Shown here: in pieces, positions 7,126-27,945 of the stretch
How positions within the stretch are numbered: the first letter of the stretch is position 1
Layout: each line of letters opens with the position of its first letter
From: Thereva unica
Lineage: Eukaryota; Arthropoda; Insecta; Diptera; Therevidae
Assembly: GCA_949987705.1 (NCBI GenBank)
Contig: OX465281.1
Span: 178,450,516-178,514,515 of the forward strand
Length of the DNA stretch: 64,000 nt
Direction of reading: 5' to 3'
Made by a program: the position numbers and the translations under genes
Notes under the pieces: generated by a model
Seen by the model: the letters and a program-made list of their open reading frames with translations, nothing else
What the model was told of the DNA's origin: nothing
Databases searched by the model: none

Positions 7126-7313
7126 AAATCATAACCACCACCCTTAACAGCTTCAGCACTAAGGCGAGTCGAGGCGCCTCAAAACCTCTAAAGAACCCAT
7201 GAATCTACGTCTAGCACGGAGGAAATGCCGCTAGATGAACACAACACACTAACCAATTTTCATTCCAGCTACACACTTCAAACTTGAAATCGGAGATTTC
7301 AACGGGGGCAGAA

Positions 7314-7352
7314 TGGTCCTTCGAGCCGGATATGAACCAGCGACCTATGGAT
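7314..7352 (-). repeat. 39-nt complement of a tRNA-Tyr 3' half right after the BEL-A polypurine tract
   Basis: TGGTCCTTCGAGCCGGAT followed by ATGAACCAGCGACCTATGGAT is the reverse complement, with one mismatch, of what I recall as the 3' half of a eukaryotic tRNA-Tyr including the added CCA. The first 18 bases are the same as the BEL-C primer-binding site. Here they lie where the 3' LTR should begin, not after a 5' LTR. This is not a tRNA gene: the 5' half is missing and CCA is encoded. Confidence 0.7.
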
Positions 7353-8760
7353 ACATATGTTTTCTATTTCTAAGTTTTATTCTAAAATTATTAAAAACTT
7401 AAAATTAAGCACTCCAAAATAACATACGTATATATGTATTTGCTAGTTTTAATGTAACAATTTTACTTACACATACTTACACTTTCAAATTTTCCATCTT
7501 TCTCATGCCCATAGTTTACTGTTCTGTAACTCTGTAACAGCCCGACCAAAAGTGACAGCAAAATTACAATAAAAACGACTGTCAGCACACCAAATAAGCT
7601 GTCGTTTATGTCAGCAGATTTTACACGACAAGAATCGACTATCAGTACACCGTGTTATGTAGAAATTTTGAGCCGCCCTCAAAATTATTCAAGTTCCAAT
7701 ATAAATCTCCAAAACTATTTCTTAATATCAAAAAACCTTGAACCTTTAATGTTATATACACTAAATGTGCACGGGGCCGGTAAACGACCCGTGCACAAGT
7801 TCTAAGTGTAACCTGAAACGCCAAAGGAAATTGGCAACAAATATTTAGCGCAATTTGCCTTGCGAAATAAATTAAACGGAAGAAAAAGCTCGTAAGCAAA
7901 TTGCGCCAGTTTCGGGCCACTTAAAGAAAAATCTGACGAATGCATTTTTCCGGCCGGCGACCTCAACCTTGGGTCAAGCAAGCACCAGCGGGTGACTTTT
8001 GCACCAAGGTTGAAGGCCCGGAAGAAAAATGCAAACGGAAGATCTTTTCGGAAGAAAGGTTTCGGGAAAATGAGGATCGATCGAGTGATCGATCGAAGAG
8101 TCTCATTAAAACTTTCCACGGCGACGGTTGTTTTCCCGCTACATTTTAAGGAGTCTTATTTTTATCTTCACCAGCGGCGGTGGTTTTTTTCGAAAAAACG
8201 GAGTCTAATTTTGTTCTTCACCGGCGGCGGTGGACTCGTTTTTTTAGAGTGTGGCGTTTTAATCTTTCACGGCGGCGGGTCGTCGGTAAAATAGTAGTTT
8301 ATTACATATAAGTAATAAAGAAAACAGAATTGTTCAATAGTTTAAGTAAAATGTGAAGTTATTTAACTGTTTTATATATTGTTAGAAATTCATATTTGCA
8401 CGGTGCCAAATAGTGTAGTGCCCATTATACTTTGTGTGTAATAACAAAAAATAATAAAATAGAATTGTTTATTAAGTCCTAAGTAAAAAAAAGGTGAAGT
8501 TATTTTATTGTTAAAAATTCATAATAACCAGTTAATTAACATTACCTTGTATAAAAATACTTCGTTAGACTTAGAAAGGAGATTGTTTTCATCCGGTTAA
8601 AATATATATAACAACCGCTGTATTAGCTTCACTTCTTATGACAGCAAATACGACTGTCAGCACATAGGCCAGTAACTCATCTAGAATTCCATTGGAGTGA
8701 CAAATATGATTTCTTACGTGTTAACCCGCTTTCGGTTTTCGAAACTAGCTGTTGTGTGTC
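7353..8760 (+). other. Non-coding tail, possibly the 3' LTR of BEL-A
   Basis: No credible gene. It contains a strong hairpin (TGTGCACGGG at 7766-7775 pairing with CCCGTGCACA at 7788-7797), duplicated TGTCAGCACA motifs (7580-7660 and near 8655), palindromic GATCGATC pairs near 8076-8100, and four degenerate units ending in a GGCGGCGG-like core (8097-8290). Such structured G/C islands in AT-rich DNA are compatible with an LTR, but without the 5' copy the limits cannot be set. Short open frames at 7608-8294 overlap this repeat structure and look non-coding. Confidence 0.35.
8097..8290 (+). repeat. Four degenerate ~50-bp tandem units with GGCGGCGG cores
   Basis: Successive units read GAGTCTCATT...CCACGGCGACGG, GAGTCTTATT...CACCAGCGGCGGTGG, GAGTCTAATT...CACCGGCGGCGGTGG and GGCGTTTTAATC...CACGGCGGCGGG. 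The spacing is 49-55 bp. Confidence 0.6.
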
Positions 8761-16620: not shown

Positions 16621-17980
16621 CTGCTTCCATAGGTAAGACAGCTAATTTGTGTATTGGTCGTCTCAAAACTCCACTTGATGTTTTAACGTCTGCTACTCGT
16701 ACAAATCCATCTTCTCCTCCTTCGATTACTTTAATGACTCTACCCAACACCCATTTTAGTACCGGCAGATTGTCCTCCTTTATCAGTACTAAAGCTCCTG
16801 TTTTTAAGTTTTCTCTTGGTGTTTTCCACTTATACCGCTGTTGAAGACTACTAAGATATTCTGTAGACCACCTCTTCCAAAAGTCGTGCTTTATCTTATA
16901 TAATGCTTCATAACGATGTCCTAAGGTCTTGTTGTTTTCTGAAGCTTGGGAATCAATTGTACTTGTAAGAGGTTCTCCAATTAAGAAATGCCCTGGCGTG
17001 AGTGCTGTTAAATCATTTGGATCGTCTGACATGGGTGTGAGTGGTCGTGAATTAAGAACTGCTTCGATTTCCACTATTACTGTTTCCAACTCTTCATAAG
17101 TTAACGATGCTTCTCCAATGTGTTTTCTGAGTAGTCCTTTCGCTGACTTCACGGCTGCTTCCCACAGTCCTCCAAAATGGGGTGATCGAGGTGGTATGAA
17201 GCTGAACGTAATACCTTTATTGTGATAAAAAAATGTAATATCCTTTTCGGCCTTGGAAGAATATATTGTCTCGTGCAATTCTCCGAGTTGATTTTTTGCA
17301 CCGACAAAATTGGTTGCATTGTCACAATAGATTTTATTGCAATTTCCTCTTCTGGATGTGAATCGCTTCAATGCTGATATGAACGCATTCGTGCTTAAAT
17401 CGGTAACAAGTTCCAGATGCACTGCTTTAGTGGCAAAACAGCAAAAAACTGCTATATACGTTTTTTGTGGTTTCTTACCTCTTACTTTGTAGTGTGTGTA
17501 TATAGGTCCTGCAAAATCGACTCCAGTATTAACGAATGGTCTGGCTGGTTGGACTCTTGCTATTGGTAAATTTCCCATTATCTGGTTTAGTGTTATAGGC
17601 TTCCTCTTTACACAAATAATACATTTACTAGTAACATTTCGTGCCATAGTTTTACCCTTTATCGGCCAATATTTTTGCCTGATAATGTGTAGGAGTGCTT
17701 GTGGGCCAACGTGTTTGTTGGTCTTGTGAATATGATCTAGTACGAGCCTCGTAAACCAATGATTATAAGGTAATAATGCCGGATGTTTAGCTTCATACGT
17801 TAATTTCGATGATTGTATTCTGCCACCTACTCTCAAAACGCCGTTCTTATCGATGAAGGGTGACAAACTACTAATATGGCTTGATGAAGGTAAACTCGAA
17901 TGTCTTTTAAGTTGCTTCAGTTCTTCGCCGAACGTATCTGCTTGGATTATCACAATGATTTTCGTTAGAGCGAACGCCAA
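16620..17980 (-). pseudogene. BEL-B integrase with DUF5641 tail (first half of a 928-codon frame)
   Basis: Zinc-binding region: HKTNKHVGPQALLHIIRQKY with CIICVKRK. The DDE core has NTGVDFAGPI, YCDNATNF and PHFGGLWEAAVKSAKG (D, D, E all present). The DUF5641 tail includes LTPGHFLIGEPL, LVLIKEDNLPVLKWVLGRV and GGEDGFVRVADVK. No stop separates this from the following env-like sequence. Confidence 0.9.
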
Positions 17981-20900
17981 TTCTTCTGTTGTAAGTTACT
18001 TTGGGGCTCCGTTTTCGTCTCTTTAAAAAATGTTCGTGACAGTCGTAAACAATAAGCGATAATTCTGTTCAGTTTCATTAAAGAGTTCCCATGATTGATC
18101 TGTTCTAATAGTGAGTGCGAATCCACAGACATTATCAAAACCTCTTTTCTTTGCTTTGTTTCATATTGTGACACTTCCCGTTTGTACAGACTTGGCCATT
18201 TTGTTTCAGGACCGTACAAGAACAATGGACCATAAGCCCATAAATGACAATCTTTGAATTTTGCGGCTGTGGCTCCTCGTGAAAGGATATCTGCTGGATT
18301 TTGTTCTGATGGCACATGCTTCCACTGCGTTGTACTGGGTAACTGTTGAATAGATGCTATTCTGTTTGCAACAGAAGTTTGATGTAAAGCAGGTTGAGAG
18401 TTGATCCAGTCTAATGTTATTGTTGAATCAGACCATAGAAAGTTTTCACATTTTGTTAAATGTAAGTCCTGCTTGATTCTACCATTTAATTCTGCAGCTA
18501 GAAGGGCAGCACATAATTCCAAACGGGGAAGTGTTGTACCTGATGCTGGCGCTACTTTTGATTTTCCACATAAAAGTTGAGTTGATATAGTACCATCTTT
18601 GTATTTTGCTCTAATATAGACTGCTGCTCCATATGCTTTCATGCTGGCATCTGCAAATGTGTGAATCTGAATGTCCACTGGAACTCTTTTCCCAAAAAGA
18701 TGTCTTGGAAATCGTACATCATTTAAATTTTCTAAGTCTTCTCTAAATTTCATCCATGCTTCGTGATATTCTGTTGGAAGTGCTTCGTCCCAACCAAGTT
18801 TTGATTTCCATAATTCTTGCATGAATAATTTAGCTCGAAGAATTACCGGTGATACTAATCCTAATGGGTCAAACAAGCTGGATATATCAGATAATACTGT
18901 TCGTTTGGTAACTCGTTTGTATTTTGGTTTACTGACTTTAACTTTTAATTCATCTATATATGGAATCCAAACGAGTCCTAAGGCTTTCAATTGATTGTCT
19001 TCACCAAGTTCGTTGAATTCTAGTTGGAGTGCTCTATGCTCTACTGGTATGTTTTCTAAAAGCTTTGCATCATTAGCGCACCATTTTCTTAACTGGAAAC
19101 CTGCTGACTGTAAAATTTTTTGAATCTGTTGTTGCATTTCCAAGGCTTCTGTCAAAGAATCTGCTCCGGCCATTCCATCGTCCACATAAAAATTATTGTC
19201 AATCATTTTACAACCCAAAGAGTATTTATGTCTATTTTCTATTGATAGTTGTTTAAGACATCTCGTAGCTTGATATGGTGCTGGTTTAGTCCCAAAGGCA
19301 ACACTTCGTATCTCATAGCATTGTAGTGGTTCTTCTGGGCTCTTTCTATACACCATAAGCTGGAAACACCTGTCACTCTCATCGAGATGAATCCGCAAAT
19401 ACATTTGCTTTATGTCCGCTGAAAACACGAATCTCGGCAACCTGAACCTCAATAATACAGTGAATAACTCTGGATGTTGAGTTGCACCATTCATCAATAT
19501 GCTGTTTAGGCTGACGTTGTTTTCTGTTGTGGCTGAGAAATCGAATACTGGACGAATGCTTGTTGAAATGCTGTCTGGTTTTTCAACATAAAAATGTGGT
19601 ACAAAATGATCATTTGCTGAAGGATCTGGAAAGGGAACCTTTGCTATATAACCAAGATCCTCGTACTCCTGTAAAATCTGACGATATTTAATGTTTATCT
19701 CTGTATTTGCCAGTAGTTTCCTTTCCAGTTGAAGAAATCGTCGTGTAGCACTTCTACGGGAATCACCTAAGCAGCTTGGATCTTTAGAAAACGGAAGTTT
19801 AACTATGAATCTGCCATTGCTGTCTTTCTTGAAGGTTTTTTGAAAATGTTCTTCACATTGTTCTTCTTCTTGAGTTAACCTCTTTGTAGTTGGTTGAGTG
19901 TCTTCAATCTTCCAGAATCTTTCAATTGAGTCTTGTAGAGTACTATCTTCCACTGTGTTGACTGCACATGTTTGATTAATTTCTTCAAATGATTTCGACG
20001 GACTTTTTCCTGCGACAATCCATCCAAATACTGTGTTCTGCAGTCTTGGCTTGCCTTTTTCGAGCTTGATTTGTTTCATTATAAGAACCTCACAAAAGAG
20101 CTCGGCGCCAATAAGTAGATCTATTTTTGAAGGTTTGTCAAAGTTTGGATCGGCTAACATAATGTTATTTGGTATCTTCAAAACGTTTCGGTCTATTTGG
20201 TGGGCTGGTTGATCTGATACTACTTGAGGGAGCACAAATGCGTCTAAGTGTGCTGTATAACTTGATGTGCTTGATGAAAGTTTGATGTTGACTCGCTGTC
20301 TGCTTCGTTGTTTAATATTCCCAACACAATTCATATGCATTTCGGTTGAATTCTTTGGAAGACGTAAACGTTGAACTGCTTCAGTTGAAATAACACTAAT
20401 TTGAGATCCTGCATCTAACACTGCTCTTAATGAAACAAGATTTCCATCTATGTCACTAACACTCACTATAACGGTACTCAAAAGGATTTGGCTGTTATTT
20501 GTTAGTGTGCTACCTGCTGCGACTGTAGAAACCGCACCTTCAATTTCAGTGCTATGTGGGCTGGCAGTAATGTTCTTCTTAGCCCCTTGCTTTGACGTCT
20601 CGGTTTGACTTTGATGGTCTGTAGAATGCAACAAGGTGTTGTGACGCTTGTGGCACTTGGTGCAGTTGCGAGAGGGACATGACTGAGCTGAGTGACCTTT
20701 CTTTAAGCAGTTATAACATAATTTCAACCTTTTCACTGTTTCCAATTTTGCTGGCAGACTCTGTTTCAAAAATGCTTTACAATTGAAGATTTGATGTTTT
20801 TCCGGACAAATTGAACAGTTAACATCGTTGGTTATTGATAATGCTGTGCGAAAGCGTGGTGATACCTTGACCATACTGTCTGCAGTTGCCACACGTCTCT

Positions 20901-21112
20901 CCTTTCCTAAAGCTTCTAGAGCTTGAAATCTGGATTCTATAAACTTCAGCAACGTGTTAAGTGATGGTAAGTCCCTTGGATTCTCTAATCGTTGTTCAAA
21001 GAGTTGATGTGTTGATCGATCCAACTTTTTGATCAAAATGTGAATTAATAATGGATCCCAATCACGTGTCGAGATACCGAGATTAGCAATACCCGAAAGG
21101 CATTCCTTAGTA
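17965..21112 (-). pseudogene. BEL-B gag C-terminus, protease, reverse transcriptase, RNase H
   Basis: The frame begins TKECLSGIANLGISTRDWDP right at the BEL-C target duplication. Zinc knuckles are CSICPEKHQIFNC and CYNCLKKGHSAQSC, plus a further Cys/His set. The protease motif is AVLDAGSQISVIS (DAG). The reverse transcriptase has FSADIKQMYLRI and the catalytic YVDDGMAG. RNase H has IHTFADASMKAYGAAVY, LPRLELCAALLAAEL and WSDSTITLDWI. A single frameshift near 17985-18000 separates this 1023-codon frame from the integrase frame. Otherwise it is intact, so the copy decayed recently. Confidence 0.9.
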
Positions 21113-21117
21113 GTATC

Positions 21118-22094
21118 TGTATGGGCTGTGAAAAGCCTATTAGAATGCTCAGTGGATGGCTACAACGTGTAATTCCAGAAAAACAAATTCTTACACTTCA
21201 CTTTAAATATTTTTATTTGTTAAAAATAAACTCGAAAATTCATATACAAACTTCCACCTTAATACTAAAAATTCTCTTAAAAAAATACAGTTCAAATTTT
21301 AATTTTATTTACAATTTGATATGAACTTAGTTCCGATGAATAGTTTTCAATCCAATATCAACTCCTTGTTCCAATTCTGCGTGTGATCTATGGCTGCCAC
21401 TTGCTTGTTTAACTAAAATTCAAATAACTTTAAAGTTTTATTAGGGTTCGGGAATGTAAAACAAAATATCCCGAGTCAAAAACCTTCGAGATGTCTAGGA
21501 TATGCGGAAAGGCGTCAAAGACCGACCTTCTGGATAGGATAGGGAATATAAATATTGTTAGATAAATCCTGAGTCAAAAAACCTACAGGATTTTCGAGTA
21601 GAAATATTATTAGATAAATCCTGAGTCATAAAACCTACAGGATTTTCGAAAGGCGTCATAAACCGACCTTTTTTTGGATGGAGATCACTAGCCTCAGCTT
21701 GGGTCTTCTAGCTCATAGCACGTAGAAGATCAGATTGTGATCTAAGTTTGTGCCCAAAGTGCTCCGATATTTATTTGCAATTTCACAATAGATCAGTCGA
21801 ACTTGGTGGGGAGTTTCGAATTCCCACTCTCCATTGTGAATAAAGTTTATTTGTGTGTATTCGTGTCGCTGACATCGGCTGTCAGAATGTCAGCCGGGTA
21901 AGTGTTTATTTTATGTTTTTGATCATAAATTAATTTATTGTATATATTTTATATATTTTTTTTAGATGCTTGGGACATTGGGGGCCGTGTTCGAGGCAAA
22001 CTTTTAGAGTTTTTTAGTGTTGTCAGGTATGTATTGTTTTTTTATAAGATTAATTCTTTTTTATAAAGTTTGTTTACTTTTAGGATCCTGAACA
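21118..22094 (-). repeat. BEL-C 3' LTR (977 bp)
   Basis: The same sequence as the 5' LTR, apart from one fewer T in the T-run near 21960. The near-identity indicates a recent insertion. Confidence 0.92.
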
Positions 22095-22261
22095 TTCTCC
22101 GGGGCCTTGAAGCGCTGGCTTCAAAATTTTTTGTATGTTTTTTTTTTGTTTTTGTTAGAATAAGGTTTATTATTATCATTTGTTATTGTTTTGTTTTTTT
22201 TAATAAAATTCTAGTTTAAATTCATATATTGGTTATTTATTTCGATCTTGTTTGTTGGTTA

Positions 22262-25200
22262 TTAGTTTTTTTTGGTTTCAGAAGTTTGTTGACTTTGGAG
22301 GTATGCTATGCATTTCTTTTCCTTGTTGAACGTAAAACGCAGGGTTCCTTCTTGAATTTTCGTTCGGTAAGCCCTTTTTGCCCTTAGAATTTTATCCCAG
22401 GGCAGTTGGAGGTGTATAATTTTATCCCATAACGATGGCTCGATGGTTAGATTTGGTGGTGGGTGGCTTTGCTGAGGTTGAACTTGTTTGGCTAGATTCA
22501 AGCTAACATCAGAACCAAGTGGGCTTTTAAGTTGTCCTTGATTTGATTTCATATACGCTGCTATCTGCGGTGTAGGTCCGCCACGAAACTGATTAATAGC
22601 AGCCGTCGTTATTAGTGGTGAATTTATAAACTGTGAGCTAAAATTTGCGATTTGTCGTTGCGGCGGTGCTGTTGACGGTGCTGGTCCACCATGACCACCA
22701 AATATACCAGCTGCAGCCTGAAGTCCGTCGCTCTGTGTCGCTCCAGCCGCTGTTGGTCCTCCGAAGACTGCACCTTGTCCACCAGCGGAATTTGAATAGT
22801 AATTATTATATTGTGGTGGCGGTGGTGCCTGCTGTGCTGGATACAAGTTCTTATATTGCTGTCCGTAGGGTTGTCCAACAGATGCTGCTGCTGCTACAGC
22901 TGCAACGTTACTCTTGGATCCGATTGCTCCAATTTGTTGTGAGGATGGCTTTACAGAAGCCGACATCAGCGAGTTCGAGCTGGAAGATATCAGTATAGTG
23001 CTAGGATTGTTCAGCTGTTGAGATTGATTGAACGGAGTCTGTACAGCCCCGCTCATACGGAATTGTGAAGTCAAACTGGGATACATGTCTGGCGCCGGCG
23101 CCGTTGGCATATTAGGTGGAGTTTGCATGTATGCATTGTATGGACCACTGCCCGCTGTGCAGTAATGTCCTAGGAACTGCGAGAACTGTGATCTGCCGGC
23201 TTCGATTTGGAATGGCGAAGGCATTGGAGATGAGTTAAATAGTACTGCCGGTGGACTAGGTATCGTAGGCATTGCACCAAACTGCGACGGCTGGTAGAAA
23301 GGCTGCGGTGCTTGATGTAGCTGTGTTGTTCCCTGCTGCATTGCAGGTGGAGCAGAGTGTCCTAGTCCGGATTGATGCATCTGCTGCTGTGTTGGCTTAC
23401 CTTTACAAACATTTCCATTACTAGACGACAAAGCTTCGGCTGCATGCTTTAACGCTAGATTACTCTGGGTATTTGCTTGATGGTGAGCTTGTGATCCAAT
23501 GACATGTTGGGGGCTAGGACTATAGCCACTGTTTTCTGCATCTTGTTGATTAGCACTTGCGTTTCCAACAACTACGGTATCTTTATTCCCAAAATGTGGG
23601 TCGAAACTAGGGTCAAACGTATTCGCATACGATGGTGGTCCGGGAGAAGATAGAGCATGTTGCATATGAATATTATCATGGGCGGCATGGGCAGCTGCAG
23701 CAGCAACCGAAAAGTGTTGTAGATGCTGCTGATGTTGGGAAGTAACAAAACTCGAACCTAAATGGGACTCAGTATCGTTTTGTGCAACGCCTGCGTGCTC
23801 CAGTACTGTCGGCGTAGGAGGAGAGCTTTCCCAAACTTTCTTCACACTTGCTATCTTCATATCGAGATCAGCGGTTGAATGCGATATTGTATTCTGAGAC
23901 GTCGACGAATGTATCACAGATGAAGATATTGGCAGACATAATCCAGCTTTTGTCGCTGACGCTGTACTCTTGTCCTCCGTTAAATGACTGAATTCTGTGT
24001 CGAAGGCGAACCCAAGTTTCATGTCCTTATCATAAACTGATTCGGTTTTATCGAATGTCATCTGTGAGAGAGCAGTAGTTATAGCTTCGTGTTGGCTATG
24101 TGATGGGTGTTGTTGGTGTTGCGATTGTTGGTGTTGTTGTTGTTGTAAATCAACTGTCATATGGAAGTTGTTGACTTGGATTGATGGCGCGGTGTCTCTC
24201 ACTTTTCCGGATAGGATCCACCCCAAAAAGGTATTTTGTGCAATAGGTGATCCTTCACAACTGAGCATTAGTCCCTTTTTGATTATGTCACCGTAAACAT
24301 CTGCACCCAACAACATGTCAATTTTTGCGGGGCGATCGTACCAAGGATCGGCTAATGCTAGCTGCTTTAGGTGATGCCAGTCTCTTTGGTGTATTTCTCT
24401 TGATGGGAGCAAATTGGTTATTTTGTTCATTACGAGTGCGTCCATATTTAGTTTGAAGTTATCGTTGTAATTCGACTTAAGAGTTAGATGGACTAGTCCC
24501 TTAACATTACCGGCGTTTATTACTCCGACTCCGTTTATTTGCGCCCATATTGGGTCTCTTTTTGGTCTGAGTTTCTGTGCCACGTATTCTGTTACCAACG
24601 AGACTTCTGATCCTGGGTCGATTACTGCTCTCACCTTTAGTTCATGACCAGTGTCAGATCGAAGCTTCACTATGGCGGTTGCCAATAAAGTCCGATTTCC
24701 TGTAGGGCCACTGCTCACCGTCAATGAATTCAAGCTGCATGCTTGGGGATTGGACTTAGAGGAGGATGAAGATGAGTCGTTCTGATTACAGGATTGCTCT
24801 ACTGCGAGATTAGATTTGATTATGTTCCCTTCTGCCGAGCGATGTAATAAGGAGTGGTGTCGTTGGTTGCAGTGGTTGCATGTGTGTCGGCTTGGACATT
24901 GAGCCATCAAGTGCCCATGGCTTAAACAATTAACGCACAACGCCTTTGACTTTACGAAATTCATTTTTTCTGACCCCGATAGTTTAAAGAACTTCTGACA
25001 CTGTCGAACATGGTGACTGTCTCGACAGTAGCTGCATGTTTGATTATTTGTAACGTGTAATGATTGCGACGTAAGCCTTGATGAAAACCCTCTGTAATTA
25101 TTACTTGCTGATGGTCCTTTCTGTGCGACGGCTTCTAAAGTCCTGAAACGTCCTTCCATAAATTCTCTCAAAGTTTCCCACGATGGTATTGTTGTCTCTT

Positions 25201-26050
25201 TGCTTATACTTTGCTCCCATAGTTGATGGGTGCCTGATGGGAATTTTTGGACTATCGTATAGATGATCACAGCGTCCCAGCTTTCAACCTTTATTCCTAA
25301 ATTGAATAAGGCTTGTAGACACTCGGTGGTAACGTCCATTAAATTCTTTATTCCTTGTGCAGACTCATTCGTCACTGTGGGCTGAGAGAAAAGCAATTTC
25401 AGTTGCGCATTAACCAATACTCGTTTGTTGTCGTATCTATCCACTAGAAGTTTCCACGCAGGATCATAGTTATCATTGGATACATGAACTTGGCGTAACA
25501 GTCCTTCAGCTTCTCCGCTTAAATGCATTTTTAAATATTGTAGTTTTTGTGCCTTTGATAAACTATGGTTCTCGTGGATTAAACTAGTGAATAGATCGTG
25601 GAATGTTGTCCATTTCTGATAATCTCCCGAGAATTTTTCTAAGGAAATTTTTGGCAATTTGATGAACACTTCCTTGTTGGGTAGAGGCAATTCGTTGAAG
25701 CTCTCAGAATGTTCTTGCGGTTGTGGTTCTGATTCTGTTTTGTGATATTCCTTTTCGAATCGGGTTTGTATTGCGGCATAATTTGAATAAAAGAATTCCT
25801 CCATGTCAGAGTACCAGTCCTCTGTGAGATACACATGCGATAAATTCGTCGAATCCGCAGGTTCCCGAATTTTCTCCACCAGGATGTCGGTATGCGCTTT
25901 CTGGAATTTGTTGAATAAGTCCTGGAAGTCTTGTAGGCGTTTTTTATAATATGAGGGTGTTCTTCGATCCGCTCCATCCTTTTTGTAATTTGTCATAAAT
26001 TTTTCCAGGAGTTCCATACGAGCTACTTGAGTATTTAGTAACTGCTCCAT
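22262..26050 (-). CDS. BEL-C gag-protease fused to a Gln/Ala/Pro-rich nocte/PRRC2-like host segment
   Basis: An uninterrupted 1262-codon frame starting MEQLLNTQVARMELLEKF, 63 bases after the PBS. Residues 1-420 are BEL gag (LEKFSGDYQKWTTFHDLF; knuckles CSYCRDSHHVRQC and CVNCLSHGHLMAQC). Residues 470-630 are an aspartic protease (VRAVIDPGSEVSLVT, LLGADVYGDII, LGWILSGKV). At about 634, within DLQQQQHQQ, the protein changes to a low-complexity segment up to about 1197. That segment contains ASVKKVWESSPPTPTVLEH, PTIPSPPAVLFNSSP, PDMYPSLTSQFRMSG and SLMSASVKPSSQQIGAIGSK. It resembles the C-terminal region of Drosophila nocte, a PRRC2/BAT2-family protein, as I recall it. The match is moderate confidence and could be another Q-rich gene. 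The last ~65 residues (LTIEPSLWDKIIHLQLPWDK...) are unrecognised. Pol is missing. An intronless, open host part suggests capture from spliced mRNA. Confidence 0.85.
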   Translation of the reverse strand: MEQLLNTQVARMELLEKFMTNYKKDGADRRTPSYYKKRLQDFQDLFNKFQKAHTDILVEKIREPADSTNLSHVYLTEDWYSDMEEFFYSNYAAIQTRFEKEYHKTESEPQPQEHSESFNELPLPNKEVFIKLPKISLEKFSGDYQKWTTFHDLFTSLIHENHSLSKAQKLQYLKMHLSGEAEGLLRQVHVSNDNYDPAWKLLVDRYDNKRVLVNAQLKLLFSQPTVTNESAQGIKNLMDVTTECLQALFNLGIKVESWDAVIIYTIVQKFPSGTHQLWEQSISKETTIPSWETLREFMEGRFRTLEAVAQKGPSASNNYRGFSSRLTSQSLHVTNNQTCSYCRDSHHVRQCQKFFKLSGSEKMNFVKSKALCVNCLSHGHLMAQCPSRHTCNHCNQRHHSLLHRSAEGNIIKSNLAVEQSCNQNDSSSSSSKSNPQACSLNSLTVSSGPTGNRTLLATAIVKLRSDTGHELKVRAVIDPGSEVSLVTEYVAQKLRPKRDPIWAQINGVGVINAGNVKGLVHLTLKSNYNDNFKLNMDALVMNKITNLLPSREIHQRDWHHLKQLALADPWYDRPAKIDMLLGADVYGDIIKKGLMLSCEGSPIAQNTFLGWILSGKVRDTAPSIQVNNFHMTVDLQQQQHQQSQHQQHPSHSQHEAITTALSQMTFDKTESVYDKDMKLGFAFDTEFSHLTEDKSTASATKAGLCLPISSSVIHSSTSQNTISHSTADLDMKIASVKKVWESSPPTPTVLEHAGVAQNDTESHLGSSFVTSQHQQHLQHFSVAAAAAHAAHDNIHMQHALSSPGPPSYANTFDPSFDPHFGNKDTVVVGNASANQQDAENSGYSPSPQHVIGSQAHHQANTQSNLALKHAAEALSSSNGNVCKGKPTQQQMHQSGLGHSAPPAMQQGTTQLHQAPQPFYQPSQFGAMPTIPSPPAVLFNSSPMPSPFQIEAGRSQFSQFLGHYCTAGSGPYNAYMQTPPNMPTAPAPDMYPSLTSQFRMSGAVQTPFNQSQQLNNPSTILISSSSNSLMSASVKPSSQQIGAIGSKSNVAAVAAAASVGQPYGQQYKNLYPAQQAPPPPQYNNYYSNSAGGQGAVFGGPTAAGATQSDGLQAAAGIFGGHGGPAPSTAPPQRQIANFSSQFINSPLITTAAINQFRGGPTPQIAAYMKSNQGQLKSPLGSDVSLNLAKQVQPQQSHPPPNLTIEPSLWDKIIHLQLPWDKILRAKRAYRTKIQEGTLRFTFNKEKKCIAYLQSQQTSETKKN
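22456..24150 (-). other. Host-derived insert within BEL-C (nocte/PRRC2-like, ~1.7 kb)
   Basis: On the minus strand the retroviral-type sequence ends in a CAA run (24136-24150). A Gln/His/Ser/Ala-rich coding sequence follows without stop or intron. Composition (poly-Ala, poly-Gln, PPPPQYNNYY, GG-rich) is unlike any BEL gag or pol part. In BEL-A the corresponding place reads LQQFWELEEL and goes into reverse transcriptase, so the insert replaces pol. The right-hand edge near 22456 is set by the change from SHPPP to NLTIEPSLW. Confidence 0.75.
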
Positions 26051-26112
26051 TGCGATTGTTTCTTATCCACTTTGATTTTTATAATCTATTTTTCTAAAAT
26101 TCACGTTGCACC

Positions 26113-26130
26113 ATCCGGCTCGAAGGACCA
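26113..26130 (-). promoter_or_regulatory. BEL-C primer-binding site, tRNA-Tyr type
   Basis: The minus strand reads TGGTCCTTCGAGCCGGAT, complementary to the 3' end of tRNA-Tyr including CCA, as I recall that tRNA. It lies five bases after the 5' LTR. Confidence 0.8.
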
Positions 26131-26135
26131 AAAAA

Positions 26136-27113
26136 TGTATGGGCTGTGAAAAGCCTATTAGAATGCTCAGTGGATGGCTACAACGTGTAATTCCAGAAAA
26201 ACAAATTCTTACACTTCACTTTAAATATTTTTATTTGTTAAAAATAAACTCGAAAATTCATATACAAACTTCCACCTTAATACTAAAAATTCTCTTAAAA
26301 AAATACAGTTCAAATTTTAATTTTATTTACAATTTGATATGAACTTAGTTCCGATGAATAGTTTTCAATCCAATATCAACTCCTTGTTCCAATTCTGCGT
26401 GTGATCTATGGCTGCCACTTGCTTGTTTAACTAAAATTCAAATAACTTTAAAGTTTTATTAGGGTTCGGGAATGTAAAACAAAATATCCCGAGTCAAAAA
26501 CCTTCGAGATGTCTAGGATATGCGGAAAGGCGTCAAAGACCGACCTTCTGGATAGGATAGGGAATATAAATATTGTTAGATAAATCCTGAGTCAAAAAAC
26601 CTACAGGATTTTCGAGTAGAAATATTATTAGATAAATCCTGAGTCATAAAACCTACAGGATTTTCGAAAGGCGTCATAAACCGACCTTTTTTTGGATGGA
26701 GATCACTAGCCTCAGCTTGGGTCTTCTAGCTCATAGCACGTAGAAGATCAGATTGTGATCTAAGTTTGTGCCCAAAGTGCTCCGATATTTATTTGCAATT
26801 TCACAATAGATCAGTCGAACTTGGTGGGGAGTTTCGAATTCCCACTCTCCATTGTGAATAAAGTTTATTTGTGTGTATTCGTGTCGCTGACATCGGCTGT
26901 CAGAATGTCAGCCGGGTAAGTGTTTATTTTATGTTTTTGATCATAAATTAATTTATTGTATATATTTTATATATTTTTTTTTAGATGCTTGGGACATTGG
27001 GGGCCGTGTTCGAGGCAAACTTTTAGAGTTTTTTAGTGTTGTCAGGTATGTATTGTTTTTTTATAAGATTAATTCTTTTTTATAAAGTTTGTTTACTTTT
27101 AGGATCCTGAACA
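26136..27113 (-). repeat. BEL-C 5' LTR (978 bp)
   Basis: It starts TGTTCAGGATCC and ends CACAGCCCATACA on the minus strand. It contains a doubled ~45-bp unit (AATCCTGAGTC...CTACAGGATTTTCGA on the plus strand). Confidence 0.92.
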
Positions 27114-27118
27114 GTATC

Positions 27119-27945
27119 GTGTAGCAATCTAAGCGGTTGAGAACCCTCACTAGAGATTGTCGGTTGAGCCAGTAATCTATTTAACCATGCATTCACTAGA
27201 AGTCTCTTGTTATCATATCTGGTCTTTAAAATTGCCCATGAATCGTCATAATTGTCCTCTGTAATAGTTAGATGTTGTACTAATGTTTTCGCTTCTCCAG
27301 AAAGATTGGAGATCAAATAGTACATTTTCTGGGCCTTTGACATCTCTGTGTCATGTATCAATGTTGTAAAAAGATCTTTGAATGACATCCATTTTAAGTA
27401 GTCTCCATTGAATATGGGTAAGACCACCTTCGGTAATTTTATATTGGGGGTAGAGGCACTGGTAGCTGAATTATGTTGCCGTTTGTTGATGTGTTCCTCC
27501 AAGGTGATAAGTGTGTTTTGCACATAACTCTCACACTCCAAATATTGTAGCATGGTGTATCCTTGTGGCTCTGAGTCAGTGGTTACTGACCATATGAAGT
27601 CATTATTCTTATCGATTTCCTCCCATTTTCGGTGGATGAATTCTCTTTTCACTGTGTAGTAAGCCTGTTGATGCGTTTGTCTACATTGATCGTTGATATC
27701 GTTAACGTAACGTAGTATGGCCTCCATTAAGCGTCTTTGCTTCTTGATGGCAATAGTCAAAGGAGATGACTCACTTGATGCTGCTACCTTTCGTTCTCCG
27801 GGCTCACTAATCTGTGTACTTAATATGCCCGATGTTCCAGCTGTGTTTATTTCATGAAGTTGTGCTGAAGACCATTCCTCAAGCTCTCTTTGAAGTGCCT
27901 CCAGACAGACTTTAAAATTGTTCCTAGTTATTTCATGATGCTACT
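27119..27945 (-). pseudogene. BEL-B gag N-terminal part
   Basis: A DUF1759-type gag with the hallmark block LPKVVLPIFNGDYLKWMSF and the DLFTTLIHDTEMSKAQKMYYL region. The open frame extends above the first Met (27760) to about 27940 (EALQRELEEWSSAQ), so the true start is probably lost at the truncation. It ends in the BEL-C insertion at ...RLLHDT, and the same protein resumes at 21112 with TKECLSGIANLG. Confidence 0.85.

Follow-up and report, generated by a model that had tools for sequence, protein, structure and literature searches.

How a retrotransposon frame came to include a long piece of a cellular gene, and what that piece contributes to the element, are the questions raised by a locus in the fly Thereva unica. 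The window, by which we mean the whole stretch of 64,000 nucleotides analysed here (assembly GCA_949987705.1, contig OX465281.1, positions 178,450,516 to 178,514,515 of the forward strand), contains an open reading frame (ORF) of 1262 codons at 22262..26050, read from 26050 to 22262 on the minus strand. In this frame the Gag and protease of a BEL/Pao long terminal repeat (LTR) retrotransposon pass into a segment that a preliminary description of the window took to be spliced host mRNA, possibly from nocte (PRRC2), standing in place of pol. This proved correct: one BEL/Pao lineage gained a piece of spliced nocte mRNA in the sense orientation and lost pol together with the front of an accessory ORF (ORF2), and it grew to at least 15 insertions while swapping gag, tail and LTR sequence with autonomous BEL elements.

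The fusion frame and the origin of its middle part

The element extends from LTR to LTR over 21118..27113 (minus strand, as are all window features given here), with LTR edges TGTTCA..CATACA. Its 5' LTR (978 nt, 26136..27113) and 3' LTR (977 nt, 21118..22094) differ by no substitution and a single 1-nt gap across 977 aligned bases, and a 5-bp target site duplication (TSD), GATAC on the element strand, lies next to the 5' LTR at 27114..27118 and next to the 3' LTR at 21113..21117, as expected of the recent insertion described earlier. Residues 1–633 of the frame (24152..26050) are an intact Gag and protease with a match to DUF1759, the Gag type of BEL/Pao elements, at residues 140–283 (E 1.2e-34), and residues 1–642 have matches of up to 93–94% among other elements of this genome, some of them with gag-pol frames of 1763 aa. 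In the autonomous relative L023 the frame is NNFHMTVDLQQQLKQFWELEE and reads straight on into pol, where DLQQQ is followed by reverse transcriptase, Peptidase_A17, an integrase zinc-binding domain and DUF5641. At the corresponding place the window frame is NNFHMTVDLQQQQHQQ and continues, after residue ~634, into foreign sequence; the ORF list and domain search of the window element revealed no reverse transcriptase, Peptidase_A17 region or integrase, all of which were found in L023. The element is a non-autonomous derivative, an incomplete BEL element.

The foreign segment, hereafter the cargo, occupies 22466..24136 (approximately residues 639–1195). A DNA search of the assembly places it at 18 sites, of which 17 are copies of the element and one is gene-like, at 10.08 Mb of contig C4. 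This gene has a large exon with a 1716-codon frame, preceded by an exon encoding a BAT2_N domain (Pfam, E 1.4e-26), and its best named database matches are insect PRRC2/nocte proteins (among 120 of 183 listed). The cargo matches C4:10081079-10082645(-) and the next exon, with 93% identity over 1638 nt (93–94% for the large exon) and 95% over 78 nt respectively, and the gene is likely to be its source. In a tree of 16 nocte proteins, the product of the C4 gene falls beside Phlebotomus with a support of 0.986 on long branches. The cargo itself covers the late part of PRRC2 only, without the BAT2_N domain, and the fusion is not a PRRC2 protein. When the whole ORF was used as the query of a protein search, the best 120 of 134 matches were PRRC2 or BEL Gag proteins only, and the largest query coverage by a single local alignment was 53%; no match in this set combines a BEL Gag with the cargo.

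Within the region corresponding to the cargo the C4 gene has an intron of 59 nt with GT..AG ends, and this intron is missing from all 16 element copies that reach its position; L031 stops short of it. Seven of the 17 copies (L006, L015, L029, L030, L032, L033 and L034) keep the exact exon-exon joint, whereas 27 nt around the joint are gone from nine others (L001–L005, L016 and L017–L019). The window copy is of the latter kind: at the joint site (22531..22536) the 27 nt are missing between GACAA repeats, and taken by itself this copy is ambiguous, as the loss could be a genomic deletion. The ambiguity is settled by the seven copies with the exact junction, and the captured source was therefore a spliced mRNA.

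The frame does not end in host sequence. Its last ~67 residues (1196–1262; 22265..22465) are BEL sequence and correspond, in the same frame, to the C-terminal ~60 residues of ORF2, which lies between pol and the 3' LTR in the autonomous elements L025 (149 aa, 7237-7686(+)) and L026 (146 aa, 7288-7728(+)). ORF2 is conserved between these two (dN 0.24, dS 2.2). It has no Pfam match, and no relative was found among the 21 candidates of a protein database search, so that it appears to be an undescribed BEL accessory ORF. The tail of the fusion differs from that of L023 with dN 0.16 and dS 0.96 over 48 codons.

One capture and the spread of its descendants

The 17 copies represent 15 insertions, as L017–L019 (C1:126.09, 126.17 and 126.25 Mb) have a common TSD, CCTTC, and are spaced ~77 kb apart, so that they are a single insertion duplicated together with its surroundings. 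These three copies thereby mark a large segmental duplication containing the element. A perfect 5-bp TSD is present in eight of the ten insertions for which both outer LTR ends were found. In 12 of the 15 insertions the LTR pair has zero or one substitution: none in L001–L004, L029, L031 (229 nt only), L032 (861 nt) and L034 (830 nt), and one in L005, L006, L015 and L030. There are two in L033 (704 nt), six in L016 and ten in L017–L019.

The joints between element and cargo are common to the copies. The 5' joint falls within a run of CAA (24137..24145 in the window) that belongs both to BEL, as DLQQQL, and to the poly-Gln of nocte; the length of the run varies, and L016 and L034 lack a further 27 nt there. 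The 3' joint is identical in the 15 copies compared as DNA and, at the protein level, in L006, having been lost from L031; it coincides with a short AGCC match, short enough to arise by chance. Losses of 6 and 18 nt relative to the gene are common to all 17 copies. The breakpoints therefore indicate one capture. Two forms of the cargo descend from it, a full form and a short form with an in-frame loss of 432 nt relative to the window copy (426 relative to the gene), and the fusion frame is unbroken in 11 of the 15 insertions, L006 with its altered end among them.

Several parts of these copies are mosaics. Five long copies and five autonomous elements can be told apart at 107 columns of the gag alignment (gap columns included), and at these columns autonomous gag tracts were detected in five insertions (L015, L016, L017–L019, L032 and L034). 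Identity to the LTRs of the autonomous L023 reaches 99.6% for the LTRs of L029 and 99.8% for those of L034. In the long copies the tail is of the kind seen in a diverged BEL subfamily (L036–L038, 80–87%), and in six of seven tail-bearing short copies the tail switches to the L023 type just past the joint. The mosaic gag, LTR and tail point to co-packaging with autonomous BELs. Packaging of both RNAs in one particle would give rise to such mosaics, and reverse transcriptase and integrase are therefore probably lent by these elements. Among 37 scored of 9305 candidates, no autonomous element exceeds 94% over residues 1–642.

Selection along the fusion frame and the probable donor of the cargo

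Gag-protease is under purifying selection, with a ratio of nonsynonymous to synonymous change (w) of 0.31 (83 silent, 75 nonsynonymous), of 0.38 when the observed mutation spectrum is used (p 2e-9) and of 0.41 in the long copies alone (p 2e-4). Two apparent gag stops in these counts stem from scoring multiply changed codons base by base, as the frames of L015 and L016 are intact; L034 shares one of the two. Terminal-repeat retrotransposons in miniature and large retrotransposon derivatives (TRIM/LARD) are defined by having no functional coding sequence, unlike the selected Gag-protease found here.

The cargo behaves differently. In 14 young insertions (L017–L019 being left out) we counted 124 events, with 87 missense and 37 silent changes against 84.9 and 33.6 expected. 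This gives w 0.93 (p 0.69 against neutrality), which is not the amino-acid purifying selection that defines transducing retroviruses with a selected cargo. However, no stop is observed against 5.6 expected (p 0.0034, from a binomial model that ignores sequence context). The deficit persists when copies are dropped in turn (p 0.003–0.011) or when L017 is added (p 0.001), and none of the 17 cargo copies has a stop within the host frame. Insertions and deletions in the cargo are mostly frame-keeping; the exceptions are 5 nt in L033, 4 nt in L017–L019, the truncated L031 and, in L016, a gap of one nucleotide at an alignment edge. These counts suggest selection for an open frame rather than for the cargo sequence.

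A plausible explanation is as follows. Capture likely occurred by template switching of reverse transcriptase in a particle containing both RNAs, at the CAA run on the 5' side and at AGCC on the 3' side. Gag-protease is likely to be a product of the lineage itself, with autonomous BELs the likely providers of reverse transcriptase and integrase. We are less sure that the nocte piece now serves, in what would be its simplest use, as a disordered bridge tolerant of sequence change, its frame perhaps being maintained because translation has to pass through it on the way to the conserved ORF2 tail. The donor was probably the nocte of a close relative rather than the fly's own allele. To this explanation as a whole, with capture, borrowed enzymes, bridge and foreign donor, we assign a probability of about 0.65.

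A number of observations weigh against it. In the four non-mosaic short copies the w of Gag is 0.52 (p 0.051), and the stop deficit comes from the 124 events and the binomial model given above. ORF2 is frameshifted in the autonomous L023 itself, and the tails of L001 and L005 differ by one silent and four missense changes; because copies also differ in the tail, constraint on it within the lineage may not be strong. The fusion frame is broken in four of the 15 insertions (L017, L031, L033 and L034), L006 lacks the last part of the tail, no perfect TSD flanks L005 or L030, and seven short-form copies have spread despite losing 432 nt of cargo.

In one alternative the capture took place as proposed and the nocte piece is useless as protein, staying open either because a premature stop would create a very long 3' untranslated region and expose the genomic RNA to nonsense-mediated decay, or because the insertions are young. 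We regard this as unlikely, if a genuine contender. It accommodates the neutral missense changes of the cargo and the youth of most insertions as judged by their LTR pairs, but youth alone would leave the lack of stops beside 87 missense changes unexplained; the variant invoking RNA decay is unaffected by this objection.

The identity of the donor can be approached by comparing classes of change. Between the gene and all elements there are 42 silent and eight missense fixed differences, as opposed to 40 silent and 106 missense differences among 15 elements (Fisher 2e-12 between the two classes). Outgroup proteins polarise the eight fixed missense differences, six as element-derived and two as gene-derived. 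At the later ratio, 2.6 silent changes would fall on the stem of the elements (upper bound 5.6), and most of the 42 therefore arose in constrained nocte genes. As a captured copy should not evolve more slowly than the silent sites of the host gene, the donor was probably not the allele of this genome but a nocte whose silent sites had diverged by ~10%. It was perhaps that of a sister species, or else an unassembled, very divergent haplotype or sex-linked copy. On the sense strand of the cargo (15 copies), polymorphic changes from G to A are frequent, with 39 against nine A>G. The fixed gene-element changes, in contrast, comprise ten G>A and seven A>G, a difference that may lean toward a foreign donor.

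It is doubtful that the donor belonged instead to the fly's own nocte lineage, with a cargo that was constrained along the stem and later relaxed, and with no need for transfer between species. Older changes within the elements are indeed less missense-rich (10 silent and 19 nonsynonymous in 4–13 copies; 3 and 4 fixed between long and short forms) than the singletons (22 and 70), so that some early constraint is possible, which also counts against the foreign donor. Yet even the 4–13-copy class differs from the fixed 42 and 8 (p 1.5e-5), and selection would need to have relaxed immediately before the last common ancestor of the copies. The fuller history, that nocte was captured in a close relative and carried across a species border, and is now spreading by means of resident BELs with the cargo as a tolerant open-frame bridge to the ORF2 tail, is one that we propose tentatively, at somewhat less than even odds.

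We think it improbable that the cargo is a prion-like domain aiding Gag assembly, for which composition would count and sequence would not. By analogy with Ty1, whose Gag has an interchangeable prion-like domain (PMC10372613), a segment rich in Gln (11.6%), Ser (13.5%), Ala (11.6%) and Pro (9.4%) that is missense-tolerant yet open might be so used. However, the autonomous BELs of the family manage without the cargo, the short form lacks a quarter of it, and the cargo is separated from Gag by a protease that may cut it off. The biased composition of the cargo called for chance similarity to be considered, but the view of it as a standard BEL domain or a fortuitously open frame can be dismissed, being refuted by the DNA identity of the cargo to an intron-bearing PRRC2 gene, by its presence in 17 copies with perfect TSDs at eight of ten testable insertions, and by the absence of any cargo-bearing BEL from the 120 best protein matches.

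Relation to known elements and setting in the window

The maize element Bs1 is a plant element, whereas here a BEL/Pao element carries a single host gene, has kept Gag-protease under selection and is fused into an accessory ORF. Acutely transforming retroviruses have Gag in frame with a host protein, have lost pol and require a helper. The window element resembles them in its Gag-host fusion frame and lack of pol, but differs in the intracellular, germ-line spread of BEL/Pao and in a cargo from translation-related PRRC2 (PMC10123092) instead of a growth-control gene. Bs1 is nevertheless similar as an LTR element with coding parts lost and host mRNA pieces carried (PMC5408686 and PMC7264820). 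The crocodilian endogenous retroviruses (ERVs) CrocERV31 and CrocERV29 carry nectin3 and KIT-ligand mRNA in six and nine proviral copies respectively, with nectin3 replacing env in CrocERV31 and the captured frames, at env or between pol and env, reported to be under purifying selection (PMC4299795). In contrast to these, missense change in our cargo is neutral, and the cargo takes the place of pol, in one frame with Gag-protease. A further parallel is LTR-mediated retroposition in metazoans (Tan et al. 2016, as described in PMC5408686), in which templates are switched where element and mRNA share short stretches of similarity, much as is proposed here. Its product is a single retrocopy, whereas the window element belongs to a multi-copy lineage that is mobile and has kept its fusion frame open. 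Finally, the DUF1759 Gag, the LTRs and partners with one gag-pol frame agree with the genus Semotivirus of Belpaoviridae, from which the window element departs in lacking pol; the profile of the International Committee on Taxonomy of Viruses mentions env-like genes and no captured host gene (PMC8742986).

LTR elements are thus known to transduce host mRNA in plants (Bs1) and among retroviruses, including the crocodilian ERVs (PMC5408686, PMC7264820 and PMC4299795). Among the mostly open-access papers searched by title and abstract opening, no report was found of capture of nocte/PRRC2 by BEL/Pao. As far as searched, the BEL/Pao case, the Gag-protease::host::ORF2 layout and the apparent frame-only selection are new. 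The preliminary description had not gone as far as the ~15 insertions, the second fusion to the accessory ORF, the mosaicism with autonomous BELs, the missense drift without stops or a donor that was probably other than this genome's nocte allele. Host-gene transduction is mostly known from single retrocopies or old, broken elements. Here one assembly holds the gene, the likely helper family, fifteen datable insertions and recombination intermediates, so that capture, mobilisation in trans and selection on the cargo are measurable together, and 'missense free, nonsense forbidden' would be a mark by which frame-only selection on captured sequence could be tested. Were the donor a sister species, this would be a retrotransposon moving a host gene fragment between animals.

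In the window, the element lies inside the gag of a further BEL element, BEL-A, whose pol side occupies 17965..21036 and whose gag side occupies 27119..27760. The nesting follows from the open frame that is restored through the entire joined stretch of 1.4 kb when the inserted element and one copy of the TSD are removed. The protease of the fusion has DPGSE at residues 478–482 (24605–24619), as does L023, where many aspartic proteases have the usual D-T/S-G motif. Each LTR contains two 54-nt units, 93% alike and with a spacing of 52 nt, at 21544–21649 and 26562–26667.

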